Shown in pieces: positions 2,194 through 41,206 of a DNA stretch of 41,206 nt. The position numbers were made by a program, and so were the translations under genes. The stretch's first letter is position 1. Every line of letters starts with the position of its first letter. Under the pieces are notes generated by a model. The model had not been told where the DNA came from, searched no databases, and worked only from the letters and a program-made list of their open reading frames with translations. The stretch comes from Spirochaetales bacterium. GTDB lineage: Bacteria > Spirochaetota > Spirochaetia > JAFGXN01. Where the stretch lies: assembly GCA_016936615.1 (NCBI GenBank), contig JAFGXN010000115.1, positions 1 to 41,206 of the forward strand, written 5' to 3'.

Positions 2194-3038
2194 GTTTGAG
2201 AAGAGCTAATACTTTTCTTGGAAAAACCTTGTTAGACATTGTAAAGATGCTCCAAGCATCAGTGTCTAGCGAGGCTACCGCCGCAAAGGCTGGGGTTCTC
2301 CAGAGATGTGACCCTAGATTTAAGCTAATTTCATGCCTCATCATGCTAGTTGCAGTTGTTCTAACAAGAGAAATAATCGTCCTTTTAGCTTTCTACAGCA
2401 TCATACTTCTTGCAGCAATTGTCTCAAAGGTTAAATTAGGTTTTTTCTTAAAAAGAACACTTCTATTTATTCCTCTATTTTCGCTATTCATTGTTTTACC
2501 AGCAATCTTTGAAGCTGTAACCCCTGGAGATATTGTCGTTAGATTAAATTTTTTCACAAAAGAAATAGGAATAACCCGACAAGGGTTGCTCTCCGCAGCA
2601 ATTCTTCTTACTAGAATTATCGATTGTGTCTCGCTCTCAGTACTTCTGATGCTAACAACTAGGCATAATGTGTTGCTAAAAACTCTGAGAATATTCAAGC
2701 TTCCTTCTGTCTTTGTCATGACGCTTGGAATGGCTCACCGCTATATCTATCTACTGCTTGAAATGGTCTACAATTCCTTTACTGCGATAAAAAGCCGTGT
2801 TGGTATTGTAAAATCAGCTAGAACAGGGAGACGAATAATCGGACTCCACATGGGGCATCTCTGGCTAAAATCCTACAAGATGCAAAATCAGGTCTACGAC
2901 GCGATGGTTTCTCGAGGATACACTGGAGAGCCAAAGACTCTCGACGATTTTAAATCTCATCCGCGCGACTTTTTTTTACTTGTTTTTTCTATTATAATAC
3001 TGGCAGGAGTGATATGTCTGAACCAATTTTTAAACTAA
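2151..3038 (+). CDS. cbiQ: ECF transporter transmembrane (T) component CbiQ/NikQ
   Basis: A CbiQ-family membrane protein of up to 295 residues. From about residue 50 it shows the usual DPRFKL entry into a cluster of hydrophobic helices, the cytoplasmic helical region around residues 185-250, and the MVSRGY segment that couples to the ATPase (the SRG motif of T components). It links NikM to the ATPase. The start is uncertain. The longest frame overlaps nikN by 43 bases without a good ribosome site. A TTG at 2196 and an ATG at 2247 are alternatives, and none has a strong Shine-Dalgarno. The N-terminal 45 residues look unlike the family and may not be translated. Confidence 0.85.
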   Translation: MDSIKKEKNQERCLSLRRANTFLGKTLLDIVKMLQASVSSEATAAKAGVLQRCDPRFKLISCLIMLVAVVLTREIIVLLAFYSIILLAAIVSKVKLGFFLKRTLLFIPLFSLFIVLPAIFEAVTPGDIVVRLNFFTKEIGITRQGLLSAAILLTRIIDCVSLSVLLMLTTRHNVLLKTLRIFKLPSVFVMTLGMAHRYIYLLLEMVYNSFTAIKSRVGIVKSARTGRRIIGLHMGHLWLKSYKMQNQVYDAMVSRGYTGEPKTLDDFKSHPRDFFLLVFSIIILAGVICLNQFLN

Positions 3039-3790
3039 CCAATATAAACTACTCATACCCTGGGAATTTCCCTGCACTGAAAGATATAAATCTAGAGATT
3101 TTTAAGCAGGAAAAAGTCGCACTTATCGGAGCAAATGGAACTGGAAAATCCACGCTGCTAACCTTGCTTGACGCTCTGATATTTGCTCAAAGCGGTGAGT
3201 TCTCTGCTTTCGGCAAGACAATAACCGAAAAGGCTCTAGACAAGGCTGTAAATCAACTTGAATTCAGGAAAAGGGTCGGTTTTGTCTTCCAAAATCCTGA
3301 TGTCCAGCTTTTTTGTCAAACTGTGAAAGAAGATATACTTTTTGGGCCATTACAGCTTGGAATAGAAAAAAAAATTATGCTTGAACGTTTTGAGACTATT
3401 GCAGAAAAGCTAAGAATTAAACACTTGATTGATCGCTCTCCTAACAGGCTGAGCATTGGTGAAAAGAAAAAAGTTGCAATTGCGTCTGTGCTAATTATTG
3501 AGCCGGAGGTTCTGATTCTGGACGAACCTACAGCTGGGTTAGACCCGCAGACAACACGAGATATTATAGACGCACTAGAACGCGAGAATCAAGCAGGCAA
3601 AACAATTATCATGGCAACACATGACTTGCACATTGTCGAGGAGATTGCAGACCTAGTTCATGTCTTCGGCGGTGAGAAGAGTATCATTCGAAGCGGGGAT
3701 GTTGCTGAAATTATGAAAGATCACGACTTTTTACAAAAAAACAATCTAATGCATGTACATGTCCACCGACACATTCATAAAGATAATTAA
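3014..3790 (+). CDS. cbiO: ECF transporter ATPase CbiO/NikO with His-rich tail
   Basis: A 258-residue ABC ATPase energising metal uptake. It shows Walker A GANGTGKS (residues 39-46), a Q-loop in FVFQNPD, the family-typical signature LSIGEKK, Walker B VLILDEPTAGLD and a switch-region MATHDLH. Length and motif set match CbiO/NikO. It overlaps cbiQ by 25 bases, with AGGAG ahead of the ATG. The last residues are His-rich (HVHVHRHIH), a plausible metal-binding tail; the HypB here lacks the poly-His stretch seen in some homologues. The stop codon interlocks with that of hypA on the other strand through a shared TTAA. Confidence 0.9.
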   Translation: MSEPIFKLTNINYSYPGNFPALKDINLEIFKQEKVALIGANGTGKSTLLTLLDALIFAQSGEFSAFGKTITEKALDKAVNQLEFRKRVGFVFQNPDVQLFCQTVKEDILFGPLQLGIEKKIMLERFETIAEKLRIKHLIDRSPNRLSIGEKKKVAIASVLIIEPEVLILDEPTAGLDPQTTRDIIDALERENQAGKTIIMATHDLHIVEEIADLVHVFGGEKSIIRSGDVAEIMKDHDFLQKNNLMHVHVHRHIHKDN

Positions 3791-4128
3791 CAAGCAATAA
3801 CCTCTTTTATCATAAACTCGTGTCCGCTTATAACTTCAAATTTTCTACTTTTACAGTGAGTACACTTCCCTTTTCCTTCTATAATATTAAAAACCTTGTT
3901 GCATTTTTGACAGATACCATTCCCTGGAAGAATATCGACCCGAAGATTTGTTCCATCTAGCATTGTACCATCAACTGCTGCGGGATAACACTCTTTAATA
4001 TACTGAGGAACAATCTCAGATAACTCTCCAATCTGCAAGACCAAGGTATCAATTTTTTCTAAATTATTCTTTCTTGCAAAATCCTCAACAGTTTTAACTA
4101 CTTCAACTAGAATTCCTAACTCATGCAT
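3787..4128 (-). CDS. hypA: HypA nickel metallochaperone
   Basis: A 113-residue HypA/HybF-family protein. It begins MHELGI, where the N-terminal Met-His-Glu provides the nickel site, and carries a structural zinc site built from two CxxC motifs (Cys73/Cys76 and Cys89/Cys92). HypA delivers nickel, with the GTPase HypB, to NiFe hydrogenase or in some organisms to urease. GAGGAG precedes the ATG. The gene lies downstream of the Fe-S oxidoreductase, but a strong terminator (4153-4179) separates them, so hypA may depend on read-through or its own promoter. No hydrogenase structural gene is in the window. Confidence 0.92.
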   Translation of the reverse strand: MHELGILVEVVKTVEDFARKNNLEKIDTLVLQIGELSEIVPQYIKECYPAAVDGTMLDGTNLRVDILPGNGICQKCNKVFNIIEGKGKCTHCKSRKFEVISGHEFMIKEVIAC

Positions 4129-4152
4129 ACTCTCTCCTCTCTAACAAAGTTT

Positions 4153-4179
4153 AAAAAACCGGGGAAAGCTCCCCGGTTT
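4153..4179 (-). terminator. Intrinsic terminator between the Fe-S oxidoreductase gene and hypA
   Basis: A 9-bp GC-rich stem (4156-4164 AAACCGGGG / 4171-4179 CCCCGGTTT) with a 6-base loop. On the minus strand it is followed by a T6 run (plus A-run 4153-4158). It lies in the 60-base gap between the oxidoreductase stop and the hypA start. Confidence 0.88.
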
Positions 4180-4188
4180 CAGAATCAA

Positions 4189-6879
4189 TTAAGCTCTAGT
4201 AAAAGCAGCTTTTACCTTTTTAAAAGGTTTCAACATCGCTAATCTTAGCTTTCGCTTAATCATATACTTAACAACAGCAGGTTTCATCTGACTTAACTCA
4301 GCCCCTGCAGAATCATATTTTCTAACAAGCTTGATAGCATCAAACTTACATTTTGTTGTACAAGAACCACAACCTAAACACATAAACTCATCAACAACAA
4401 CAGCTCCACAACCAAGACATCTCTCTGTCTCTTTCTTAACCTGCTCTTCTGTCAATGTTCCTCTTAGGTCGTGGAAAGTCTCTTTAGATTTCTCGCCAGG
4501 AACATGCTCAGTTCGCTGTCTTGGAGTAGTATCATAACCTTCGATAAGAATATTCTCCTTGTCAAAAGCCTTATAATCTCTCTTAATTCTTCCAAAGACA
4601 AGACTCTGTCCGTTCTGAACAAATCTGTGGATAGAGATTGCGCCCTCTTTTCCTAATGCAATTGCATCAATTGCAAACTTAGGACCGATAACAGCATCAC
4701 CACCAGCAAAGATATCAGCTTCATCTGTCTGAAATGTTGTCATATCTGCAATAATTGTATTATTTGGATTTAGCTTAACTTTACTTCCTTCAAGAAGCTT
4801 ACCCCAATCCATAGCCTGTCCGACAGAGATCAAAACATTATCTGTCTCAACAATCTTTGTCTGAGCCTCATCGAATTTAGGACTAAATCTTCCGTTCTCA
4901 TCAAATACTGATAGACACTTCTTGAATTCAACGCCAACAACCTTGCCATTCTCAACAACTACTCGTTTAGGTCCCCAAGAATTATCAATAACAATTCCCT
5001 CTTCAAGAGCTTCATCAATCTCTTCCTGAAGTGCAGGCATCTGCTCTCGAGACTCAAGACAGAACATCGAAACTTCTGAAGAACCAACTCTAACAGCAGT
5101 TCTTGCTACATCGATTGCTACATTTCCACCACCGATAACGATTGTTCGACCGTCAAGCTTAGTCTTATCTCCAAGATTTACATCTCTCAAGAAATCAACA
5201 CCAGTGATAACACCTTCAGCATCCTCACCTTCGATGTTAAGTTTTCTTCCAGCCTGAGCTCCAATTGCTAGATAAAAGGCTTTAAACCCTTGTTCTCTCA
5301 ATTCTTTAAGAGTTACATCTTTTCCAACTTCCACGCCAGTCTTAAATTCAACACCAAGATCTCGCAATACATCAATTTCAGCATTAACAACATCTTTTTC
5401 CAATCTATAAGAAGGAATTCCAAGTGTCATCATACCACCAAGCGCTTTCTGCTTCTCAAATACTGTTACCTTGTATCCATCAATAGCTAGGTAAAAAGCA
5501 CATGAAAGACCTGCAGGTCCAGCACCTACGATAGCAATTGGCTTGCCATAATCATGGCGTTTCTTAGGAACATATCTAGTCTCGGCATTTAAATCTTGCT
5601 CAGCAATAAATTTCTTAATATCATCAATCGCGATTGGATCATCAATATCACCACGAGTACAAGCTGACTCACATTTTCGAGGACAAATTCTACCACAAAT
5701 CGCAGGAAATGGGTTCTCGTGCTTAATCAGCTCAAGAGCCTCTTTATATTTTCCTTGAGATGCAAGCTTGATATAACCTTGGATTCCAATGTGGGCAGGA
5801 CACTCAGCCTTACAAGGGCTTGTTCCGGAATCAAGAACAACCTTTTTGTTTGTTCTATATTCATAGTTCCATTTATCTGGACCCCATTCGTTGTTATAAG
5901 GAGTCTCTCTTTTTTTCTTCTTCTCTGGAGTAGTTGAGCAGAGTTTCTGACCAAGTTTAAGAGCATTTGGTGGACAAGTCTCAACACACTCACCACAAGC
6001 GACACACTTCTCAGTGTCAACTGTAGCCACGTAATTAGATCTCATCATATCAGGATTATTCCACATACCAGCTAATCGATAAGCAAAACATCCACAGCCA
6101 CAGCAGTTACAGATTGCGTGGGTCTTGCCAGGTCCGTCAGTATTTGGGATAGAGTGAACAAGTCCATTCTCTTCAGCCTTCTTAATAATCTCAAAGGCTT
6201 CTTCACGAGTAATCTCTCGACCTCGACCTGTTCTGATATAGTATTCTGCAGCATGATCCATCTGAATACACATATCTTCTTTCAAGTGACCACAACCTTC
6301 ACCCATTGCCTCTCTTGATGTTCGACAAGAACAATCAGAGACTGAGAATCTGTGCGCCGCGTTCAAATACCCAGAAACCTCTTCATACGAAGCCTTCTTT
6401 GTCGCACCGTCAATTGCAGTTTCAATTGGAATAACACGCATAGGACCAAATCCAACAGGGAAATTTCCAGCTGTCAAAGGACCACGTCTTTTTCCATAAG
6501 CATCAAAAGCTTCCGCAAGCTGAGGATACTTCTTAACATTTTCTTTATTGTTGACAATCATCTCCATATGCCCAGGAACCCAGATCTCAAGCCAATACTT
6601 ATCAACACCATCAATCTCCTGCACTAGAGAAGCCCCGGCAACAGCCAACTCCCAAAGCAATTTTGCAGTCTCTTCTACAGATTTACCACATTTAACTGCA
6701 ACTTCAGCAGCACTCTGTGGTTGCCTTAGCTCAAGGCACATCGCAACATCAGCCATGTCATCTGTAACAATCGGCTCAAGGATCTTATACTCAGGATACT
6801 CTGGTTTAATCTCCATCTTTGAACCACGCTTAACCCGGCTAATCTTATTTGCCAAGTCTAAAATCTTTTCATTCGCCAT
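4189..6879 (-). CDS. Large Fe-S/FAD NAD(P)H oxidoreductase, GltD-like
   Basis: An 896-residue cytoplasmic electron-transfer protein. The start at 6879 (MANEKIL) is chosen for its GGGAG site 8 bases upstream. Domain order: an N-terminal winged-helix-like segment (about 40-110); a Cys-rich Fe-S region with CSCR near 183 and CNCCGCGC near 258; a ferredoxin motif CVACGECVETCP (292-303); a GltD-type Fe-S linker domain (about 345-425); an FAD-binding GAGPAGL (452-458); an NAD(P)-binding GGGNVAIDVA (about 583); and a C-terminal ferredoxin-like CLGCGSC (about 834). The core resembles the glutamate synthase small subunit, but no GltB is present and the Fe-S additions differ, so this is probably an NAD(P)H:ferredoxin-type enzyme. 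The partner is unknown. Its place between hypB and hypA is notable. Confidence 0.8.
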   Translation of the reverse strand: MANEKILDLANKISRVKRGSKMEIKPEYPEYKILEPIVTDDMADVAMCLELRQPQSAAEVAVKCGKSVEETAKLLWELAVAGASLVQEIDGVDKYWLEIWVPGHMEMIVNNKENVKKYPQLAEAFDAYGKRRGPLTAGNFPVGFGPMRVIPIETAIDGATKKASYEEVSGYLNAAHRFSVSDCSCRTSREAMGEGCGHLKEDMCIQMDHAAEYYIRTGRGREITREEAFEIIKKAEENGLVHSIPNTDGPGKTHAICNCCGCGCFAYRLAGMWNNPDMMRSNYVATVDTEKCVACGECVETCPPNALKLGQKLCSTTPEKKKKRETPYNNEWGPDKWNYEYRTNKKVVLDSGTSPCKAECPAHIGIQGYIKLASQGKYKEALELIKHENPFPAICGRICPRKCESACTRGDIDDPIAIDDIKKFIAEQDLNAETRYVPKKRHDYGKPIAIVGAGPAGLSCAFYLAIDGYKVTVFEKQKALGGMMTLGIPSYRLEKDVVNAEIDVLRDLGVEFKTGVEVGKDVTLKELREQGFKAFYLAIGAQAGRKLNIEGEDAEGVITGVDFLRDVNLGDKTKLDGRTIVIGGGNVAIDVARTAVRVGSSEVSMFCLESREQMPALQEEIDEALEEGIVIDNSWGPKRVVVENGKVVGVEFKKCLSVFDENGRFSPKFDEAQTKIVETDNVLISVGQAMDWGKLLEGSKVKLNPNNTIIADMTTFQTDEADIFAGGDAVIGPKFAIDAIALGKEGAISIHRFVQNGQSLVFGRIKRDYKAFDKENILIEGYDTTPRQRTEHVPGEKSKETFHDLRGTLTEEQVKKETERCLGCGAVVVDEFMCLGCGSCTTKCKFDAIKLVRKYDSAGAELSQMKPAVVKYMIKRKLRLAMLKPFKKVKAAFTRA

Positions 6880-6912
6880 AAACATCTCCCATTCTAGCAA
6901 TTTCTGCCAATA

Positions 6913-7581
6913 TTATTTGTTCCAAATCTTTATCTCTTCTCGTAACCAATCAGCCCAGGCCTCAACTCCCTCTCCTGTCTTTGCAGAAATAGGAAAAACC
7001 TTGATATTAGGATTCAATTTCTTCGCTCGCTGAGTAGCTGCCTCTAAATCAAAATCAAAATATTCTGCAGCATCAATTTTATTGATAATCAAAACATCAA
7101 CAGCTCTAAAGATTCCTGGATATTTCAGAGGCTTGTCATCTCCTTCAGGAACACTAAGAATCATAGCATTCTTCGCCGCACCAGTATCAAACTCAGCAGG
7201 ACAAATCAAATTCCCAACATTTTCTAAAACTACAAAATCCAGCCCATCTGTCTCAATCTCCTCAAGACCCTGTCTTGTCATATCTGCATTCAAATGACAC
7301 ATCCCACCAGTATGAAGCTGGATAACCTTAACCCCTGTCTTAGAGATAGTTGTCGCATCAACATCAGAATCAATGTCTGCCTCAATTATTCCAATACTGA
7401 ATTCATCCTTTAAGGCCTCTATAGTTTTAACAAGCGTCGTGGTCTTACCAGAGCCAGGCGACGACATCAGATTAAGTAAAAAAACTTTATCTTCTTTAAG
7501 CTTAGTTCTCAATAAACTAGCCTGAGCATCATTATTCTCATACACACTCTTTTTAATCTCAAAGACCTTAAAACTATCCAT
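6913..7581 (-). CDS. hypB: HypB nickel-insertion GTPase
   Basis: A 222-residue SIMIBI-class GTPase. It has the P-loop SSPGSGKTT (residues 40-48), the metal-site Cys95-His96 in GGMCHL, an NKID base-recognition motif, and EADIDSD near residue 68. It lacks an N-terminal poly-His region. The start at 7581 is preferred because AGGAGG lies 9 bases upstream; the ATG at 7590 touches the ribosome site. It hydrolyses GTP while passing nickel with HypA to a target enzyme. The Fe-S oxidoreductase gene starts 33 bases downstream, in the same operon. The promoter and structured leader upstream are listed separately. Confidence 0.93.
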   Translation of the reverse strand: MDSFKVFEIKKSVYENNDAQASLLRTKLKEDKVFLLNLMSSPGSGKTTTLVKTIEALKDEFSIGIIEADIDSDVDATTISKTGVKVIQLHTGGMCHLNADMTRQGLEEIETDGLDFVVLENVGNLICPAEFDTGAAKNAMILSVPEGDDKPLKYPGIFRAVDVLIINKIDAAEYFDFDLEAATQRAKKLNPNIKVFPISAKTGEGVEAWADWLREEIKIWNK

Positions 7582-7602
7582 AAATGACATCCTCCTAAAA
7601 AA

Positions 7603-7628
7603 AAGCTACATAAATATGTAGTTTTTAT
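7603..7628 (-). promoter_or_regulatory. Terminator-like hairpin in hypB leader
   Basis: On the minus strand CTACATA-TT-TATGTAG (7605-7620 region) forms a hairpin flanked by AAAA, followed by C and a run of about eight T, ending at the AGGAGG site of hypB. A weak AT-rich stem plus U-tract directly before the ribosome site resembles an attenuator, or a stem masking the site. Confidence 0.45.
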
Positions 7629-7640
7629 CATTATACACTC

Positions 7641-7669
7641 AAAAATTGCTATATGAAAAGGCAATTTTT
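7641..7669. repeat. 9-bp perfect inverted repeat upstream of hypB
   Basis: AAAAATTGC (7641-7649) and GCAATTTTT (7661-7669), with an 11-bp spacer. It could be a leader stem-loop if transcription starts near 7672. It could be an operator if the alternative -10 TATAAT (minus strand, 7635-7630) is used. Confidence 0.5.
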
Positions 7670-7678
7670 CTAGAAATC

Positions 7679-7708
7679 GATATTTAATTATCTTTTTTTA
7701 CTGTACAA
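7679..7708 (-). promoter_or_regulatory. Predicted hypB promoter with GATA-N6-TATC operator
   Basis: On the minus strand TTGTAC (7708-7703) is followed after 10 bases by GATAATTAAATATC (7692-7679), a near-palindrome covering a weak -10 (TAAATA, 7686-7681, spacer 16). Read on the plus strand the 14-mer GATATTTAATTATC differs at only two positions from GATATAAAATTATC over the nikM -10 (1128-1141). A second -10, TATAAT at 7635-7630, may also serve. Confidence 0.5.
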
Positions 7709-7813
7709 CTAATATAACACATTTTCATTTCAAATTCAAATTTCTAGTTGATTAACCTTTTAAAACATATTCTTATTATTATTCATAATTGGTCTGACCA
7801 AGATAATTCTAAT

Positions 7814-7850
7814 AAAAAACTATCTTTTTCTCATAAAAAAAGATAGTTTA
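7814..7850 (-). terminator. Intrinsic terminator after phosphodiesterase-like gene
   Basis: A long AT-rich stem AAACTATCTTTTT (7818-7830) / AAAAAGATAGTTT (7838-7850) with T-rich sequence following on the minus strand. It lies about 20 bases past the stop of the lipoprotein gene at 7871. Confidence 0.8.
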
Positions 7851-7870
7851 AACTATTTCAATAGAGCAGA

Positions 7871-8788
7871 CTACTGCTCAAAATATAGATACTTTTTCTG
7901 ATTGACAACCAGCCAGGTATTTCTCTCCTGCTGAGTCTGACCACCATGTGTAAACTTGTTCCCTCCATGATCTGTAGTAAGGATAATCAACCAATCCTCA
8001 TTGGCATAGTTTTCTCTCGACTCTACACTTTTAATCAAATCAAAGGCATATTTATCAACTTCTGTAATCTTCTGGGTATACTCAGGAATAAATGGACTAA
8101 AACCATATTTATGACCCATCTTATCAGTCTCCAAAAATACAGAAAAAATTACATCAGCATTTTTCTCAAGAATAGCAGATCTAGTATTCTCAAACAAATC
8201 CTTATCATCTTTTGAATTATACATAATGTCAATTATATCTTTTTCATTCCTTAAGACGTTATCATTTAACGGAGCCCAGTGAACTAGAGAAGCAATTATA
8301 AATTCAGGAAAGAGAGCCTTAGCTCTAGCCAAAAAGCTAGGAGTCTCATCAGATTTCGATAAGACAAAATTGTGAACAACCTTGTGTTTATCAGCCCACT
8401 GCCCGGTTAAAATCGTAGTCCAACCTGGCGCACTATAGGTCTTTTGAAGATTGCCTTTAATCCCACCGACAAAGGTATGATAAATACCACTATGCTCTTG
8501 TGCGACTAGATAAGGAACTGCAACTAACGAGGTATTTGCTAATGCATCTGTCCTCACACCATCATAACCGATAAGAAGAACCTTTTTATCCTTCTCTCCA
8601 TCGCCATTTTTAAGAAAATTCTCAATTGTTGCTGAAACTATCGTCTGAGGAATCATTGTAGAGTATGAATTCTCAAAATCCAGCCACCCCTCCACAAAAT
8701 CACGCTGAACATCGACACTTTTCATCCCAACACAAGAGAGATTGGATAAAAAAACCATAAATAATAATATTTTTACATTTTTAAACAT
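7871..8788 (-). CDS. Type I phosphodiesterase/nucleotide pyrophosphatase-family lipoprotein
   Basis: A 305-residue protein of the alkaline phosphatase superfamily. It has a signal peptide with lipobox NLSC (Cys19). The core shows metal-ligand motif GYDGVRTDAL (about residue 74), the region with the nucleophilic Thr APGWTTILTG (about 120), FLETDKMGHKYG with the Asp/His metal ligands (about 220), and TTDHGG near the C-terminus. This set matches PF01663-type phosphodiesterases/pyrophosphatases acting on nucleotides, phospholipids or phosphonates. The substrate cannot be told from sequence. It is predicted to be membrane-anchored outside the cytoplasm. GGAGG precedes the ATG. It is followed by its own terminator. 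Confidence 0.83.
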   Translation of the reverse strand: MFKNVKILLFMVFLSNLSCVGMKSVDVQRDFVEGWLDFENSYSTMIPQTIVSATIENFLKNGDGEKDKKVLLIGYDGVRTDALANTSLVAVPYLVAQEHSGIYHTFVGGIKGNLQKTYSAPGWTTILTGQWADKHKVVHNFVLSKSDETPSFLARAKALFPEFIIASLVHWAPLNDNVLRNEKDIIDIMYNSKDDKDLFENTRSAILEKNADVIFSVFLETDKMGHKYGFSPFIPEYTQKITEVDKYAFDLIKSVESRENYANEDWLIILTTDHGGNKFTHGGQTQQERNTWLVVNQKKYLYFEQ

Positions 8789-8895
8789 AAGACCTCCATG
8801 TCATTTAATTTTAACACAGAGGTATTTTTTGATTAGTTAAAAAGTTGTTAAAAAATCTAAACGCATTCTTCAGAAGAACTCAACAGATTCTTAAT

Positions 8896-9432
8896 CTATC
8901 CTAAGAATCCAGCTGTCCACAAGAATGGATCTAATATCACAGTCTGAAAGATAAAGAGTAAGAAAAATGGGATACAAGCCCAGTACCAGATTGCTGCCTT
9001 GCGTGGCTTTAGCCCTAGAAAGAAGAGGAACAGCATCAAGGTGCCAAGACCCACGAAGAGAAGATCCATCTGAATCAGAACCCACAACCACGATGAAGGG
9101 CTTCGCATGTAAGCCAACGTCAGAGGCATCCAAAACACAGAGAAGATTAAGATTATCAAGAACGGCAAGTAAAAAGCCCGGTACGACAATCTCGACCACA
9201 TTCTGCTATTACTCGAATCTACCATAAAAATCAAGTAAGGGCTAAAGACAAGATAACTTATCATAGCAAGAAACATAAAGACAGTGTAGATTGGAATCAA
9301 GGATTCAGAGGTCTGCCCCCAGAAATCCATCCCCGAGCCCTCGTGCAGAAGAATCGAGACAACATAACTACCCAGAACAAATGCTCCCCCGACGAGATTT
9401 ATTATCAACAAAATTAAATTATCTTTTTTCAT
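8896..9432 (-). CDS. Polytopic membrane protein, unknown
   Basis: A 178-residue hydrophobic protein with about five membrane helices (roughly residues 8-28, 45-72, 88-110, 117-140 and 150-170), rich in Trp and Phe. No family motif is recognised. An AGGAG site precedes the ATG, and the gene begins 15 bases after the GH130 stop, so it is very likely the last gene of the GT4-GH130 operon. It might assist polysaccharide or lipid-linked sugar handling in the membrane. That is context-based inference only. Confidence 0.6.
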   Translation of the reverse strand: MKKDNLILLIINLVGGAFVLGSYVVSILLHEGSGMDFWGQTSESLIPIYTVFMFLAMISYLVFSPYLIFMVDSSNSRMWSRLSYRAFYLPFLIILIFSVFWMPLTLAYMRSPSSWLWVLIQMDLLFVGLGTLMLFLFFLGLKPRKAAIWYWACIPFFLLFIFQTVILDPFLWTAGFLG

Positions 9433-27675: not shown

Positions 27676-28935
27676 TTAAACAGCCCTAACTTTCTCAATT
27701 GCTAGCGTTTCTTGCTGAGCTTGATAATATTCATTTAAAAACCTAACAACTGAATGACCCACTGCTGTAGCTAAATTTACCGGAACAGCATTTCCAATCT
27801 GCTTATATTGTTGAGACATTGAGCCCTCGAAGATCCAATCATCGGGAAATGTTTGAATACGAGCATATTCTCGAACAGTAAAGGGGCGGGTTTCTTCAGG
27901 ATGGCAACGTTCTGTCTGTTTTTGCGCTGGAGCGCAGGTCAAAGTCAAACTAGGTTCATCCCAGCTAATTCGCCGAGCCATTCCAGTTTTACCACCACCT
28001 AAATAAAAACTTTTCAACATGTATTCTTTCTGAATTTCAAGAGGTAAATCTCTCCAATATCCTCCTGGAGGAACTAGATCTAAAATTTCCTTCTTCCTTT
28101 TTGGATATTTCTGACCATCTGACTCAGGAACATCAGAGTCATACAACTCACCAGCTTTCAATGCATCTCGCAATGTAAAAATACGACCTTCCGCTTTTGG
28201 GTATGTAAAATCTATTGAAATGTCATTTCTGATAGCAACAAGAACTAACCGCTCCCTCTTCTGAGGAACTCTATAATATATTGCTTTTAACACCTGATAA
28301 GGCAGGACTCGATAACCTAATTCTTCCAAGACATCAATCATACCATTTAAAGTTTTGCCATTTTCATGACTCAAAAGACCTCGAACATTTTCTGCAATAC
28401 AAATTTTAGGTTTTATCTCTTTTATTGCCCTTGCATATTCAAAAAATAGAGTTCCCCTAGCATCATCAAATCCCAATTTTTTCCCAGCATAACTAAATGC
28501 CTGACAGGGAAAACCACCAGTAACAACATCGATTTTTCCGAAATATGGCCTAAAATCTAAATTACGAATATCACCTTCTACAACATTCCACTCAGGACGA
28601 TTGCGTCTAAGAGTACTACATGCCCACTTATCAAACTCATTCAACAAGACATGATGAAGCCCTGCCTGCTCCAAACCCAAAGCAAGACCACCAGCCCCAG
28701 CAAATAATTCAATTGTGGAATAGTCTCCAAAAGGCTTTTCTAGCTCAGGCTCTGAATCATCTGGGAAATATAGATTCAATTGCTCACAAACCCTCAAATG
28801 TTCATCGGTATAAAATCTATATCCATTTATTTTATTCCGCTCAGCAGACAAATGACCAGAATTATCCCACCTTCGCAAAGTCTCTTTAGATACTGAAATT
28901 TTTTGAGCAAATTCTTCAATTGAGTATGTTTTCAC
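27676..28935 (-). CDS. C5 cytosine DNA methyltransferase with N-terminal MerR-like HTH
   Basis: A 419-residue modification enzyme. I prefer the GTG start at 28935: an AGGATGG site lies upstream and the product then starts like a MerR HTH (MKTYSIEEFAQKI). The open frame reaches 28956. Residues 1-65 are the HTH. The methyltransferase follows with motif I FAGAGGLALGL (about 78), catalytic GGFPCQAFS (Cys144), ENVRGL, QKRERLVLVA, and the C-terminal YKQIGNAVPV. It protects sites from the Eco47II-type nuclease encoded just upstream (81-base gap). The HTH suggests self-repression at the inverted repeat 28937-28969. Confidence 0.93.
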   Translation of the reverse strand: MKTYSIEEFAQKISVSKETLRRWDNSGHLSAERNKINGYRFYTDEHLRVCEQLNLYFPDDSEPELEKPFGDYSTIELFAGAGGLALGLEQAGLHHVLLNEFDKWACSTLRRNRPEWNVVEGDIRNLDFRPYFGKIDVVTGGFPCQAFSYAGKKLGFDDARGTLFFEYARAIKEIKPKICIAENVRGLLSHENGKTLNGMIDVLEELGYRVLPYQVLKAIYYRVPQKRERLVLVAIRNDISIDFTYPKAEGRIFTLRDALKAGELYDSDVPESDGQKYPKRKKEILDLVPPGGYWRDLPLEIQKEYMLKSFYLGGGKTGMARRISWDEPSLTLTCAPAQKQTERCHPEETRPFTVREYARIQTFPDDWIFEGSMSQQYKQIGNAVPVNLATAVGHSVVRFLNEYYQAQQETLAIEKVRAV

Positions 28936-28936
28936 G

Positions 28937-28969
28937 ATAACCATCCTACACAACATTAGTCATGGTTAT
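28937..28969. promoter_or_regulatory. Inverted repeat just upstream of methyltransferase start
   Basis: ATAACCAT (28937-28944) and ATGGTTAT (28962-28969) with 17-bp spacing. It brackets the ribosome site of the methyltransferase gene and is a candidate operator for its own MerR-like HTH. Confidence 0.5.
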
Positions 28970-29016
28970 TATTTTACTCTAAATTCTTTTTTTTTACTAT
29001 ATTTTTCTTGAAAAAT

Positions 29017-29757
29017 CTAACCAATTTCAAAGTTATCAAACCCCTCGTATCTTGAAAAAGAGAGCAAGAACAAACTTTTCAAAATACTTGGAGAAATAAC
29101 CTCGAGCTCATCATAAACTGTATTTATGATTTTACCACCCCCAAACTCAACAAGAACATCATCCAGAATAATTGGCAATTTCTCACACAATAGCCTAAAA
29201 GAATTTGGAACACCTGTAACAATATCATAAAATTTATCAATAGATATTCGTCTAATTTTTTCATGAGAAAATTGACTACCATTTAAAGAGGTTACCCAAA
29301 CAATATCCTGAGATTTTTTTGCAATAACTTCAACAAGATAACAAGTCGCTTTATCATTTCTAAGAATAGTATTTTGCATTGTCATGTATGTTTTTTGTGC
29401 AGATGAAGAGTTCATGGTATTATGCTTATTCTTTAACTCAACAAATATATTTTTTTCAAGATTCACAACATCATAGCCAGACTTTGGAACTGACCAACCA
29501 TTACCAAAGTATTTAAAGATGTTCTGATGAAAATATCCAATTTTATTTGAATTTGTCTTATCTATTTGGCGAATACATTCACTTTCAATGATCTCATTAA
29601 AATTTTTTCCATAAATTTTGGAATCAAAAGTCAATTTTATTGGGTCTACAATATTTTGACAAAACTCTGATAACGAAATAGAGTATCGATACTGCTCTAC
29701 AGTCTCTTTTACATGTTTATAAATATCTTTATCTGAAATAAAACCTAAATTATACAC
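29017..29757 (-). CDS. Type II restriction endonuclease, Eco47II family
   Basis: A nuclease of about 246 residues. The GTG at 29757 is preferred: GGGGGGAG stands just upstream and the product starts at the conserved LGFISD. In-frame ATG (29772) and TTG (29781) lack a good site. Recognisable family blocks are LGFISDKDIYKHVKETVEQYR, DPIKLTFDSKIYGK and IGYHFQN-like IGYFHQNIFKYFGNGW, then the PD-(D/E)xK-like core SGYDVV...FVELKNKHNTMNSSS and CYLVEVIAKKSQDIVW. The family (Eco47II/Sau96I type) is associated with GGNCC. It pairs with the C5 methyltransferase downstream. The low GC of the pair fits acquired DNA. Confidence 0.87.
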   Translation of the reverse strand: MYNLGFISDKDIYKHVKETVEQYRYSISLSEFCQNIVDPIKLTFDSKIYGKNFNEIIESECIRQIDKTNSNKIGYFHQNIFKYFGNGWSVPKSGYDVVNLEKNIFVELKNKHNTMNSSSAQKTYMTMQNTILRNDKATCYLVEVIAKKSQDIVWVTSLNGSQFSHEKIRRISIDKFYDIVTGVPNSFRLLCEKLPIILDDVLVEFGGGKIINTVYDELEVISPSILKSLFLLSFSRYEGFDNFEIG

Positions 29758-29809
29758 TTTCTCCCCCCTCATTCCAACCAATTCTACAACTAAAATTCAG
29801 CTTAGTCAA

Positions 29810-35984: not shown

Positions 35985-37826
35985 ATGGATTTTGATCTTA
36001 TTATAATTGGCGCTGGGCTTGCTGGATGCTGTGCAGGAATTACTGCCGCACAGAACAATCTCAGGACAGCAGTCATCTCAAAGGTTCATCCCCTGCGCAG
36101 CCACTCAGTTGCAGCCCAGGGCGGAATAAACATTCCAATTGACGAACAAGACATAGAGCTCCATATCAGAGAGACACTTGCATCAGGCAGCGGAATTGCT
36201 GACGCAGATGCAGTAAGTTTTATAGTAAAAAATGCCCAACAATCTGTGGAGTTTCTCCAGAAGTGCGGAAGTCTGCTCCAGATTGAGCAATCAGGCGAAC
36301 TTGCCCGACGCAATTTCGGCGGACAGAAGGTGGCTCGAACCTGCTACTACAAAGATAGAACCGGCCTCAGCCTCCTCAACACCGCATACGAACAGGCGCT
36401 GCGAGCCGGCGTGCAATTCTTCGACGAGTGCGAAGTCTTTGACATACAGCTCAAATCTGCTGAGAACAATCTCCACACAATCAAGACGTGGAAGAAAGAT
36501 AAAGGAAAAATTTTAAACTTCACAAGCGAATTTCTGCTTATCGCTAACGGTGGCTATGCTGGAATCTACCCCCGCAACTCCAACTGCCTCGGCAATATCG
36601 GAAATATCCAATCGATACTCTTTCAGAAAGGCATCCCACTGATAGATCTGGAATTTGTCCAATTTCACCCGACAGGACTCACCCGAAGCGGAATACTCCT
36701 CTCCGAGGCTGCCCGCGGCGAAGGTGGCTACCTGCTCAACAGCCAAGGCAGACGATTCATGACAGATTATGATGAGCGGGCAGAATTAGCACCGCGCGAC
36801 ATTGTTGCCAGAGCAATCTTTACCGAGATAGAGCAAGGCCGAGGTGTCGACTCAGGCGATGGAAGAAAGACAGCAGTCCACCTGGATCTGCGCCACATAA
36901 GCAGAGATAAAATTCTGGAGAAACTCCCCGAGATATACGACCTGGTTCTCAACTTCACCGGCAAGGATTTGTCGCAAGAACTAATCGAAGTTGCCCCGAC
37001 TGCACATTACTCGATGGGCGGGCTCCCAGTCAACGCCAACGGGCAGGTTCTCGGGCCAAGCCTCACCCCCGTCGATGGATTATTCGCAGCTGGAGAGGCC
37101 GCGTGCATGAGCCTTCACGGCGCAAACCGCCTCGGCGGCAACTCACTGCTAGAGACCATCGTCGGTGGATTCCTTGCCGGTAGCTCAATCTGCCTTTCCA
37201 AGAAAAAAGCAGATCTCACGACACCGCTACTCCCCTCGCTCACGCTAGATAGATTTCTTGCCGAAGCAGAGAAAACCCGCCCCGAGGGCAATGGAATTTT
37301 TTCTCAGAAGGAGAACTGCAATCTCACCCTGCCTCAGCTCACCACAATTCTAACACAGTTCCCGGCGCAAGAGTTCGCGCAAATTGCTCCAAACTTTTCA
37401 TTTATTATAGAAGAAATCAAGCAAAGTCTCGCCAACGGCGCTGGGATATTCCGCGACCAAAGCCGACTTGCAGACTCAGCTTCGAAGCTGGAGAGAATAA
37501 ACGCCAGCATAAATCAAATTTTTTCCCAGCTAGAAGAGAGAGCTACCGCAAAAGCATCAACAGACACAACAAGCAGGCAATCCACCGACAGCCTGCTCGC
37601 GCAACCCTACCTTCCAGCGGCACAAGAGCTGCTTGACCTACGCTGCCACCTGATCCTCTCACAGCTGATAATCGAGAGTGCTGACGCACGCAAAGAGTCG
37701 CGGGCAGCCCACCAGCGCAGCGATTTCCCGACAACCGACACGAATTTTCAAGCCCACTCGCTGATCTACCTCGAGGGCTCGAAACTCATGATAAAATACA
37801 CCGGGGTGAACAATGGACAAGAATAA
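35985..37826 (+). CDS. sdhA: Succinate dehydrogenase/fumarate reductase flavoprotein
   Basis: A 613-residue FAD subunit interconverting succinate and fumarate. It starts directly with the dinucleotide motif DFDLIIIGAGLAG (no Tat signal, so cytoplasmic), has RSHSVAAQGG with His40 as the covalent-FAD residue, HPTGL (228-232), ARGEGG (243-248), catalytic Arg271 in LAPRDIVAR, and NRLGGNSLL near the C-terminus. The C-terminal region (about 430-600) is more variable, with a Thr/Ser-rich loop. The coding sequence is richer in GC than the neighbours to its left. It overlaps sdhB by 14 bases. Fumarate reduction is the likelier direction in an anaerobe. Confidence 0.93.
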   Translation: MDFDLIIIGAGLAGCCAGITAAQNNLRTAVISKVHPLRSHSVAAQGGINIPIDEQDIELHIRETLASGSGIADADAVSFIVKNAQQSVEFLQKCGSLLQIEQSGELARRNFGGQKVARTCYYKDRTGLSLLNTAYEQALRAGVQFFDECEVFDIQLKSAENNLHTIKTWKKDKGKILNFTSEFLLIANGGYAGIYPRNSNCLGNIGNIQSILFQKGIPLIDLEFVQFHPTGLTRSGILLSEAARGEGGYLLNSQGRRFMTDYDERAELAPRDIVARAIFTEIEQGRGVDSGDGRKTAVHLDLRHISRDKILEKLPEIYDLVLNFTGKDLSQELIEVAPTAHYSMGGLPVNANGQVLGPSLTPVDGLFAAGEAACMSLHGANRLGGNSLLETIVGGFLAGSSICLSKKKADLTTPLLPSLTLDRFLAEAEKTRPEGNGIFSQKENCNLTLPQLTTILTQFPAQEFAQIAPNFSFIIEEIKQSLANGAGIFRDQSRLADSASKLERINASINQIFSQLEERATAKASTDTTSRQSTDSLLAQPYLPAAQELLDLRCHLILSQLIIESADARKESRAAHQRSDFPTTDTNFQAHSLIYLEGSKLMIKYTGVNNGQE

Positions 37827-38904
37827 CAAGACAATGCCAACTACCACACAGTCAACAATCAATACACCACAGGCTGTCAGCCATACACAAGAATCAGCAA
37901 CACGCGAAATAGTCCTGCAAATCTACCGCTTCGACGGCAGAAACTCGAGATACTCGCTAGTCAAGGTTACCGCCGCCCCCAACGACTCACTACTAGACAT
38001 TTTCCACAAGGTCAAAGCCACAACTCTCCCCGACTTTGCCTACCGCTACTCATGCCGCCACGGAATCTGCGGCAGCTGTGCAATCCGAATCGACAACATC
38101 CCAGTCCTCGCCTGCAAGGCACGCCTGCGCGACTACCTGCGCCCCGGCACAACCCATCTACGCATCGACCCACTCGCACCGCAGCAAGTCCTTCGCGACC
38201 TGATCTGCGACGAAAGCTCATACCGCAAATCGATAGAGACCATTATCAAGCCATATATAATTAATTTTTTAGGAAAAAACCTTTGTCCACCAGCTGCCAC
38301 TCCACCGACGAAGCAGCCCCACCGACAAATTGAACAATCCATCTACGCGGCTGCAAGTCTCCAGGAAATTCTCCCCGACCCTGATCTTCTCAAGAACACA
38401 GAGGGCTGCATCAACTGTGGAATCTGCTACTACACCTGCCCCGCAGTTGTCGAAGGTGAGTTCCCAGGACCAGCCGCTGCAGCAAAACTTTTCAGGTTCA
38501 CAGTAGATTCTCGCGACAACTGCTACTCAGAACGGCTGAAATTAGCAGACCAGCTACTATGGAACTGCGTAAAATGCATGAAATGTGTCGAACTCTGCCC
38601 GCGCGGGCTAAAACCCTACTATAGAATTCAGGATTTACTCAATTCAGCCTACTCGAACAGGCTGAATGAACATTCAAGCGACCTCTCCCACGCAAAAGGA
38701 GTCGAAGAGTCTATATTCCTGACTGGTCAGCTCAACGACATCTACGTCGGTGCACGAACATCGATTTTTACATTTATAAAAATGCTCCCCACCGGAATAA
38801 AATCCGTGCTCAAGGGGAATTATAATTTTTTTGCAATATACAAGGTAAAAAACAAGCGATCAATCCGCAGACTTCTGAAGCGAGGTAGCAAAAATGAGCA
38901 ATAA
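37813..38904 (+). CDS. sdhB: Succinate dehydrogenase/fumarate reductase iron-sulfur subunit (8Fe type)
   Basis: A 363-residue electron-transfer subunit. A Thr/Gln-rich N-terminal 30 residues precede a [2Fe-2S] domain with Cys81, 86, 89 and 101. The C-terminal domain has two complete CxxCxxCxxxC motifs: Cys199-209 and Cys252-262. In classical enzymes the second motif lacks one Cys and builds a [3Fe-4S] centre; here both predict [4Fe-4S], as in the TfrB/CCG-linked group. A C-terminal extension (about 275-363) has a basic end. It overlaps sdhA by 14 bases and sdhE by 11. Confidence 0.9.
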   Translation: MDKNNKTMPTTTQSTINTPQAVSHTQESATREIVLQIYRFDGRNSRYSLVKVTAAPNDSLLDIFHKVKATTLPDFAYRYSCRHGICGSCAIRIDNIPVLACKARLRDYLRPGTTHLRIDPLAPQQVLRDLICDESSYRKSIETIIKPYIINFLGKNLCPPAATPPTKQPHRQIEQSIYAAASLQEILPDPDLLKNTEGCINCGICYYTCPAVVEGEFPGPAAAAKLFRFTVDSRDNCYSERLKLADQLLWNCVKCMKCVELCPRGLKPYYRIQDLLNSAYSNRLNEHSSDLSHAKGVEESIFLTGQLNDIYVGARTSIFTFIKMLPTGIKSVLKGNYNFFAIYKVKNKRSIRRLLKRGSKNEQ

Positions 38905-39739
38905 AAAACCAACTAGCACGGCAAGCAGCGCAGCAATCTCTCCACGATATGTGATTTTCCCAGGGTGCGTACCTTCGGTAGCTGAACGCAAAGTGCTGCG
39001 CGACTTTTTCCGCGTAGCAAAGCGGCTAGCAATCCCCATCATCCAGGAAAAAGCCTTCTCCTGCTGCGGCGGCGCTCACCTTCAGGACATAAGCGTCGAG
39101 AAATCGCTGCTGCTCAACGCCCGCAATCTCGCACTAGCCGAACAGTCAGGCGACATCCTCATCACAATCTGCAATACCTGCCAGTTAAGCCTGCTAGAAT
39201 CCAAGACCTACCTCGACAAACACCCGCAGCAGCTGAAAGAGATAAACAACATCCTAGCCGCCGAGGGGCTCCCTCCCTACACAGGAAAGATCCAGATAAG
39301 ACATTTTCTCTACATTCTCTATGATTTTATCGTAGCAAATCCAAGCCCTGCCATACTAGAAAAAATCCAGCAGGCGCCGCAGCAGAAAATCTACCCATAT
39401 TACGGCTGCCACCTGCTGCGACCATCCTGCATGAACCAATCACAGCAAGACGCAGAGGAGACCTGGTCGCCGCAGATCTTCACCCAGCTGATAGAAGCCT
39501 GCGGAAGTGAAGCTGTAACCGGGAGACTAAACCTCGACTGCTGCGGCTTCCACCGCGTCCTAACCACCCCCCGCACCAGCACCAGCCTCGCCCAAGCCAT
39601 CACCGACGAGGCAATTGCCCTCGAAGCCAGCACGCTCCTGACCACCTGCCCATTGTGCAAATTCTCACTGTCGCTAGTCAAACAATCGAAGGTGAAGATC
39701 CTCCACGTCGAAGAGTGGCTAGCACGGATGCTCAAATGA
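38894..39739 (+). CDS. sdhE: CCG-domain (HdrB/SdhE-type) subunit of fumarate reductase
   Basis: A 281-residue protein with two CCG cysteine-rich domains. First: PGCVP (Cys25), SCCGG (Cys57-58), CNTC (Cys93, 96). Second: YGCHL (Cys172), DCCGF (Cys216-217), CPLC (Cys252, 255). Such domains bind unusual [4Fe-4S] clusters in heterodisulfide reductase HdrB and in the E subunit of non-classical succinate:quinone reductases, where they replace the transmembrane cytochrome b. No hydrophobic anchor gene follows. GAGG precedes the ATG, which overlaps sdhB. Its 3' end borders the repeated DNA described separately. Confidence 0.88.
   Translation: MSNKKPTSTASSAAISPRYVIFPGCVPSVAERKVLRDFFRVAKRLAIPIIQEKAFSCCGGAHLQDISVEKSLLLNARNLALAEQSGDILITICNTCQLSLLESKTYLDKHPQQLKEINNILAAEGLPPYTGKIQIRHFLYILYDFIVANPSPAILEKIQQAPQQKIYPYYGCHLLRPSCMNQSQQDAEETWSPQIFTQLIEACGSEAVTGRLNLDCCGFHRVLTTPRTSTSLAQAITDEAIALEASTLLTTCPLCKFSLSLVKQSKVKILHVEEWLARMLK
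39680..39694 (+). repeat. 15-bp direct repeat, copy in sdhE
   Basis: AAACAATCGAAGGTG, 45 bases before the sdhE stop; the identical 15-mer ends the window at 41192-41206, right behind the hepT stop. Confidence 0.75.
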
Positions 39740-39754
39740 AACTATGTGGATAGA
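39727..39754 (+). repeat. Repeat junction: sdhE 3' end joined to hepT-start-like sequence
   Basis: 39727-39741 (GATGCTCAAATGAAA) recurs with one mismatch at 40501-40515, and 39738-39754 (GAAACTATGTGGATAGA) recurs with one mismatch at 40844-40860, where it holds the hepT start. Here the two are fused through the shared GAAA. Confidence 0.6.
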
Positions 39755-39771
39755 TTTTTTTAAAAATTTCT

Positions 39772-40384
39772 TTACTCGTCTGCTAGCTCAATTCTTTTAA
39801 ACTCTTGCTCAAATTCCTCTACTGTGGGTAAAGAGTCTTTAAACTCACGTGGAAGTTTTTCTATTACCTGATATTCACTAACACCAATAGGATTGCCAAT
39901 TTTCTTTAATGAGTATTCTGCAGTGATTTTGTCTTTAGATGTGATGAAGTAAGACATTTCTACTCCATCCATTTTCCAAAACGTTCTTTACGTAAAAAGT
40001 AGCTTCTTTCGTTTCTTTACATTGTGAAATAATTACAATATTACTACCCCAAGGGATTTGCACTAATTGGGCAACAACTTGTTGCCCAATTTCATCTTTA
40101 CTCCAAAACAAGAACCATTGTCTTACATATTTAAGATTTCTTTCAGAAAAACCACTTACCTCAGGAAATGCTTTTTTTAAATCTTTGCTCAAATTCTTCA
40201 AGAAATTGCTTCCCCATTTATACTTTGTCTGCATATCCACAATATCGTTCCCAAGCCCCCAATAGAAATTTAAAAGCTCTCTATTTACAGAAATACTTGC
40301 CTTAATTTGCGAATTTCTAAACTTTAACTTTAAATCAGCAATCCAATCTCTGTACGCTGCATTATCAATAAAACTTTCAATAAT
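39772..40384 (-). pseudogene. Decayed DUF1016/YhcG-family nuclease gene
   Basis: Two out-of-step fragments of one gene. The N-terminal fragment (from about 40384 to 39935) reads ESFIDNAAYRDWIADLK, then ISVNRELLNFYWGLG, then FSERNLKYVRQW and LENGWSRNVLL, the typical DUF1016 N-domain. The C-terminal fragment (39972 to 39772) reads TSKDKITAEYSLKKIGNPIGVSEY, then LPREFKDSLP, the end of the PDDEXK nuclease domain. About 170-190 residues between them, including the nuclease core, are missing and the frame changes at about 39937. The start also looks lost: a GGAGG at 40390-40386 is followed by ATT codons rather than ATG. A TATAAT (minus, 40408-40403) remains upstream. Confidence 0.8.
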
Positions 40385-40500
40385 ACCTCCGCACCTTCAA
40401 AAATTATACCATGAAGATATTATTTCAGCCTTCTCGACAATTCAGAATTTAAATATTTTTGAATTTTTCTGAAATGCCCAACAGCTAGACGTGAGGCGAA

Positions 40501-40515
40501 GATGCTTAAATGAAA
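40501..40515 (+). repeat. Degenerate copy of sdhE 3' end
   Basis: GATGCTTAAATGAAA, 14 of 15 bases identical to the sdhE stop region (39727-39741), located just ahead of mntA. Confidence 0.55.
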
Positions 40516-40556
40516 ATCATTTGCTATATCTAAAATTTTCAGATATACTAAAAGCG

Positions 40557-40859
40557 ATGAACAAACTTTTATTGTCAAACAAAACAGAATTACTCTCCTT
40601 ATGCAAACAATTCAAAGTAAAGAGCCTCTATGTCTTTGGCTCCATACTTACTGAAAATTTTTCACAGGAAAGCGACATAGACTTCATTGTATCGTTCGAA
40701 GAGATTCCAGAGATTGAATATTCAGATTTTTACTTCGGACTCAAAGAAAACCTGGAGAAAATACTCAAACGCCCCGTCGACCTCATAATCGAAGAGACAA
40801 TAACAAATCCCTACCTCTTTTCAGAATACCAGGAAACACGAGAGAAACTATATGGATAG
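40557..40859 (+). CDS. mntA: MntA-type antitoxin nucleotidyltransferase
   Basis: A 100-residue minimal nucleotidyltransferase from the ATG at 40557. The open frame reaches a GTG at 40491, but that part covers the sdhE-tail repeat and looks non-coding. The catalytic signature is GS (28-29) followed by DID (Asp40, Asp42), with a later KRPVDLIIEE strand giving the third acidic residue. MntA antitoxins inactivate HepT by adding AMP to a Tyr near its active site. The gene overlaps hepT by 8 bases. The ribosome site is weak. Confidence 0.85.
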   Translation: MNKLLLSNKTELLSLCKQFKVKSLYVFGSILTENFSQESDIDFIVSFEEIPEIEYSDFYFGLKENLEKILKRPVDLIIEETITNPYLFSEYQETREKLYG

Positions 40860-41193
40860 AAAAGTTTTGAAATTACTTTATGATATCAAACTATCTATCG
40901 AATCAATAAATGACTTCACGAAAACTACTGTATCATTTGAAGAATACACCAGTAACAAGCTTTTAAAACGAGCAGTTGAAAGAGAGTTTGAAATAATAGG
41001 TGAAGCCCTCAATAATTCAATCAAAATTGATAAAAATCTGAAGATAAACAACTATCAAAAAATAATCAGTTTCAGAAACTACCTAATACACGGCTACTCA
41101 GATATTTCAGACAAAGTCGTCTACAGTATCATACTCAAGGATCTCAAACTTCTCGAAGATGAAGTTACGAACCTGCTAGGCACGAACAAATAA
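40852..41193 (+). CDS. hepT: HepT-type HEPN toxin ribonuclease
   Basis: A 113-residue HEPN (DUF86) protein. The RNase motif RNYLIHGY (residues 75-82) supplies catalytic Arg75 and His80 and the modifiable Tyr82. Length and motif match HepT toxins of type VII toxin-antitoxin systems, which cut RNA (tRNA in some) unless AMPylated by MntA. It overlaps mntA and so is translated in a coupled way. The stop is followed directly by the 15-bp sdhE repeat at the window edge. The gene looks intact. Confidence 0.9.
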   Translation: MDRKVLKLLYDIKLSIESINDFTKTTVSFEEYTSNKLLKRAVEREFEIIGEALNNSIKIDKNLKINNYQKIISFRNYLIHGYSDISDKVVYSIILKDLKLLEDEVTNLLGTNK

Positions 41194-41206
41194 ACAATCG
41201 AAGGTG
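41192..41206 (+). repeat. 15-bp direct repeat, copy at window end
   Basis: AAACAATCGAAGGTG, identical to 39680-39694 within sdhE, and cut by the window edge, so its true length is unknown. Confidence 0.75.

Follow-up and report, generated by a model that had tools for sequence, protein, structure and literature searches.

The window analysed here, 41,206 nucleotides long, is the entire contig C60 of an uncultured spirochaete's draft genome (3.26 Mb in 168 contigs, 93.9% complete), and its end is the contig end. Close to this end lies an sdhA-sdhB-sdhE operon, followed by a decayed YhcG gene, an MntA/HepT pair and several partial copies of the sdhE 3' end (Table 1). The best NCBIfam model for the last gene of the operon is NF042965 (MFR_anch_SdhE), at 133.7 bits against a cut-off of 500; because the protein carries a cysteine-rich CCG domain and its best model, below cut-off, is that of the SdhE/MfrE membrane-anchor family, 'sdhE-like' is a fair label. 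The relatives that we compared, G001 and G002 of the same family, have 40% identical SdhE orthologues behind an sdhB homologue, and in both a hemerythrin-like ORF adjoins sdhE; at 40% amino acid identity they are too distant to serve as empty-site comparators. The G+C content of sdhE is 54%, compared with a mean of 40% over positions 1-38000 of the window, and given this excess the sdh operon may itself have been imported. Elsewhere in the window, at 27676-29781, an ORF resembling cytosine-5 methyltransferases, with an HTH-like stretch at its N-terminus, adjoins a restriction-enzyme-like ORF, both as read from translation only.

Table 1 Features at the sdhE end of the window, with the three copies of the sdhE tail labelled T1 to T3
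Feature	Position	Strand	Evidence or remark
sdhA-sdhB-sdhE operon	35985-39739		sdhE is the last gene
sdhE, SdhE/MfrE-like CCG-domain subunit	38894-39739	+	PF02754, E 6.9e-18
T1, functional sdhE 3' end (..KQSKVKILHVEEWLARMLK, then stop), left direct-repeat copy	39680-39739	+	52/53 to C132:1-53
J, putative relic junction at GAAA between an sdhE-tail end and hepT-start-like sequence, mntA apparently lost	39738-39774	+	
YhcG/DUF1016 remnant	39772-40395	-	DUF1016_N, E 2.3e-27; YhcG_C profile positions 117-157 only
T2, probable third copy, decayed, of the sdhE stop region	40501-40515	+	14/15 to 39727-39741
mntA-like adenylyltransferase antitoxin	40560-40859	+	PF18765/PF01909; GSX10DXD intact
hepT-like HEPN RNase toxin	40852-41193	+	PF01934, E 1.7e-16; RX4HXY intact
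T3, start (15 bases) of the second sdhE 3' end	41192-41206	+	Continues as C132 (L008) 1-57

The 15-mer AAACAATCGAAGGTG, which lies within sdhE at 39680-39694, recurs exactly behind hepT, as the first-pass annotation had noticed; this second copy overlaps the hepT stop and reaches the window end. The whole 3.26-Mb genome holds three copies, the third being C132:1-15, and from there the resemblance continues: C132:1-53 is identical to window 39680-39732 at 52 of 53 positions (98%, E 8.5e-19). This second sdhE tail is in frame, spans the last 18 sdhE codons and has its own stop, TGA at 55-57. Exact end overlaps of at least 14 bases, with runs of N set aside, were found for ten contig-end pairs among 233 ends, the C60 end and C132 start (15 bases) included; the chance expectation of a 15-base overlap is ~2.5e-5 (about 27,000 pairs/4^15, by our own arithmetic). 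From the end overlap and the tail match together, the bases past 41206 are those of C132; the expectation that the next ~45 bases would resemble 39695-39739 was thus borne out, within the limits of a draft assembly. Further units might be concealed by the contig break at T3. The tail does not form a repeat family in the genome, which rules out a dispersed repeat.

When the flanks are joined by script (39680-41191 removed, sdhE read into C132), the product is a full-length SdhE that ends in ..KQSKVKILHVEEWLARML and a stop, the reading frame running on to EEWLARML-stop, and the present gene ends in ARMLK-stop. The sdhE end is therefore restored, as had been proposed, and the DNA between the copies is a removable insert; with a second sdhE tail behind it, this block could be lost again without harm to sdhE. 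T1 ends in MLK-stop and T3 in ML-stop, and the DNA that follows T3, the downstream copy, is unrelated.

The block between the tails measures 1,459 bp and is AT-rich, with 32-33% G+C against 54% in sdhE (the contrast as fractions being 0.32-0.33 against 0.54/0.48). Profile matches and an alignment to the intact copy on contig C137 agree with the earlier view that its YhcG is a remnant: the N-domain and the extreme C-terminus are kept in two frames, and the nuclease core is deleted. A near-perfect palindrome (AATTGGGCAACAA-C-TTGTTGCCCAATT) lies within the YhcG coding region, at window 40065-40091, and a similar palindrome is present in the intact C137 yhcG, around 3424-3448 of locus L009.

The mntA and hepT genes overlap by 8 bases, antitoxin first. 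Their translations contain GSILTENFSQESDID (GSX10DXD, MntA) and RNYLIHGY (RX4HXY, HepT), the two motifs that define the type VII class (PMC7641770). In NCBIfam, MntA reaches 44.7 bits (NF047752) and HepT 41.4 bits (NF047751), both under the cut-off of 60; being below these equivalog cut-offs, they are divergent members of the wider HEPN/MNT class. The pair is most likely an ordinary type VII toxin-antitoxin, in which the HepT RNase would be silenced by MntA AMPylation. The genome's other HepT, on contig C112, has no such repeat around it in our survey.

Signs of an older layer lie within the block. Ahead of mntA, the sdhE stop region (GATGCTYAAATGAAA) recurs at 14 of 15 positions (T2), as first reported; the match is only 15 bases long, is reached once when the 181-base stretch upstream of mntA is shuffled 1000 times, and belongs to a motif that, at two mismatches or fewer, occurs eight times genome-wide, the two local copies counted. 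The similarity between the sequence after sdhE and the hepT start, initially given as 16 of 17 positions, extends to a 37-bp match (J against 40844-40880) that 2 of 1000 shuffles reach. Aligned as a single deletion junction, T2 and J together have a spliced score of 42, which is reached in 0 of 600 dinucleotide shuffles (best 39) and 0 of 67 control windows (best 31), the p-values being optimistic in that motif and windows were picked after the reader had seen them. Because no shuffle or control window attains the junction score, an older tail-mntA-hepT copy is supported, and the suggestion that it collapsed at a GAAA microhomology holds up; on this alignment, an earlier copy that would have lost mntA is well supported.

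T2 has AAATGAAA in common with T1, past the point at which T1 and T3 diverge. As it agrees there with T1 and not with T3, the MLK-stop end goes with the old block, and T3, with its ML-stop, is a different sdhE end, which favours two alleles in series over one duplicated site. T1 and T3 are nearly identical (98%), and T2, in the middle, is decayed; we infer from these sequences that the ML-stop end became adjacent recently.

We found two tyrosine recombinases in the genome, both XerC/XerD-like (147 and 119 bits against the integron-integrase model TIGR02249, whose cut-off is 265). The 1,459-bp insert contains no recombinase or integrase, the draft genome no integrase beyond the XerC/XerD-like proteins, and the serine resolvase family has no match genome-wide. 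Ku (PF02735) likewise has no match in the genome, and the positive control from Bacillus subtilis was found; on this absence we rejected Ku-dependent (NHEJ) capture at a staggered break. Terminal inverted repeats are missing at the sdhE insert, its best end-to-end score being 9, compared with 22 on contig C102 and 16 on C81. With only Xer-like recombinases, no resolvase, no Ku and no terminal inverted repeats, no dedicated machinery is evident; such enzyme absences are no proof, since the assembly is only 93.9% complete, and an integrase could lie in an assembly gap. One IS1634-family transposase is encoded on contig C110 (NF033559, 392 bits).

Two mobile-looking features were seen elsewhere. 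The IS1634-family transposase, at L145 (C110) 1170-2864, is the sole DDE_Tnp_1 transposase found in the genome and has possible inverted ends (TCTTTAACAGTTGC). A small dispersed element, at L137 (C102) 1569-1882 and L116 (C81) 8663-9210, has inverted ends that are imperfect (TGTCAAGCG..) and target duplications that, at 26-28 bp, are unusually long; related pieces occur on C30, C80, C82, C96, C105, C122 and other contigs.

Repeats at gene edges are not confined to sdhE. In a survey of 1.92 of the 3.26 Mb of this one genome, 27 repeat pairs, on 15 contigs, are direct and 0 inverted, pairs being counted when 250-8000 bp apart, non-dispersed and not both inside ORFs; several touch gene ends, and gene tandem duplication contributes to the excess. 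The closest parallel is on C56 (L092, 17778-19738, minus strand), where the C-terminal tail of HigA (about 41-82 bp) occurs three times, on both sides of a DUF4160-DUF2442 pair; the stop codon of DUF2442 directly abuts a HigA tail copy, just as that of hepT meets T3. At L009 (C137 26000-33000), positions 2400-6100, a type I restriction locus has rhuM and the intact yhcG between hsdS and hsdR; the leader of hsdR and its first codons recur as a 124-bp copy (85%) ahead of rhuM-yhcG, and a related leader stands ahead of yhcG.

Further loci of this general kind were recorded. L121 (C86) 3200-8900 is an array of RhuM, Bro-N, Fic and a RhuM-Fic fusion, with many direct gene-edge repeats between the genes. 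Gene tails or heads recur as direct repeats around a solute-binding-like ORF at L159 (C124) 117-148/1185-1216, NAGLU and GH38 glycosidases at L055 (C19) 11857-11918/17503-17564, and lipoprotein/Memo-like ORFs at L105 (C70) 1871-2033/7339-7499. As cargo such as the C19 glycosidases and the C70 lipoprotein-like ORFs is not toxin-like, the process does not look specific to toxin-antitoxin (TA) genes. The broadest reading, which we consider improbable, would be that this lineage has a general, enzyme-light means of stacking defence and toxin genes behind housekeeping ones, each cargo arriving with a gene-end copy that its stop codon abuts, reversibly, at many unrelated genes and free of integrases and attachment sites.

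At the sdhE locus itself, two near-identical sdhE tails stand in series, each with an in-frame stop, and remnants of an older tail-mntA-hepT copy lie inside the block. The account that we favour, to which we give about an even chance, is that the low-G+C block was prebuilt by TA accretion and inserted at the sdhE 3' end through tail-anchored recombination. The YhcG remnant and the MntA/HepT pair would first have been assembled by such accretion, and the incoming DNA would have brought its own sdhE end (T1, MLK-stop). Homology within sdhE would then have guided the junction on one side, and the junction on the other, immediately upstream of the resident tail, would have formed illegitimately or through micro-homology; alternatively, a circle carrying tail and block might have entered by a single crossover. 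Either route would displace the resident end (T3, ML-stop) to its place behind hepT. Given the direct repeat of T1 and T3, the block is now deletable in one step. That such segments can arrive by homology-facilitated illegitimate recombination has been described (PMC2884548); the homologous-anchor step of this route leaves no signature of its own in one genome.

Several other histories have to be weighed against this one. Local tandem duplication, in which unequal exchange between tails amplified a unit of tail and cargo that was later trimmed by deletions, gains from the second tail-mntA-hepT copy revealed by J and T2 and correctly predicts direct rather than inverted repeat pairs in the 1.92 Mb surveyed; we nevertheless think it unlikely, as the DNA behind T3 is unrelated, the T3 end differs from that of T1, and exchange should also yield T2, whose decay contrasts with the 98% identity of T1 and T3. 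Simple tandem exchange thus fits less well than an imported sdhE tail plus block, because T2 would be as young as T3. Of the first-pass proposal that a unit of sdhE tail, mntA and hepT was repeatedly inserted or tandemly duplicated, the older copy survives, but simple tandem duplication leaves the tail ends, the flanks and the decay of T2 unexplained. Site-specific integration, by which the block would be a remnant of, or have been trans-mobilised by, an element that attaches at the 3' end of sdhE and restores it, in the manner of islands at tRNA genes and other gene 3' ends, is doubtful in our estimation: the layout is the classic one, with a ~53-bp direct repeat at the 3' end of a gene that is itself restored, yet the insert has no recombinase, the genome offers only XerC-/XerD-like tyrosine recombinases and no serine resolvase match, and its other gene-edge repeats are unrelated in sequence, so that there is no shared attachment core.

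Long and variable target-site duplications have been reported for IS1549 and other IS1634-family elements, and transposition of this type could draw on the transposase on C110 and on the precedent of the C102/C81 small repeats, with their imperfect inverted ends and 26-28-bp duplications. It is largely refuted already by the missing terminal inverted repeats, and the similarity at T2 runs beyond the supposed duplication; we regard it as very improbable. More generally, target-site duplication fits less well than an imported sdhE tail plus block because it duplicates one sequence. Hardly credible, finally, is an assembly artefact in which the end of C60 was mis-extended into an unrelated short repeat: the repeat does fall exactly at a contig end, in a draft of 168 contigs, but C132 independently has 57 in-frame sdhE-tail bases with nothing else of sdhE nearby, and the C60/C132 overlap is among only ten such pairs in 233 ends.

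How TA and defence genes reach the chromosome when no vehicle is obvious is an open question. Here the steps of such an event can be put in order, because the locus keeps both sdhE ends, the cargo and traces of an older copy, and the favoured account, import of a prebuilt block with its own sdhE tail, predicts a precise empty site. Independent tests are offered by the further gene-edge repeats that surround unrelated cargo in this genome. The literature that we searched (open-licence papers) holds no report of this arrangement.

Genomic islands integrate at the 3' ends of genes, among them tRNA genes, icd, guaA and dusA. The sdhE locus shares with them the direct repeat of the target gene end and the restored target, but its insert is only 1.46 kb, there is no integrase beyond XerC/D, and the T1 and T3 ends differ. 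With chromosomal integron cassette arrays it has in common small TA genes between repeats and a cargo stop codon abutting a repeat; in contrast to those arrays, no integron integrase is found here, and the sdhE repeat is a real coding tail that forms the SdhE C-terminus. Checked for an attC-type hairpin, the tail repeat folds weakly (about -10 kcal/mol, a value taken without a shuffle control), and we rejected an integron array, both recombinases being XerC/XerD-like. The toxin-antitoxin genes match type VII MntA/HepT systems in the adjacent PF01909/PF01934 pair, the antitoxin-first order and the GSX10DXD and RX4HXY motifs (PMC7641770), and differ in that the spirochaete pair scores below the NCBIfam cut-offs and is bracketed by copies of its neighbour's 3' end. 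With homology-facilitated illegitimate recombination (PMC2884548), the locus shares a foreign segment set next to a homologous stretch and the lack of dedicated enzymes.
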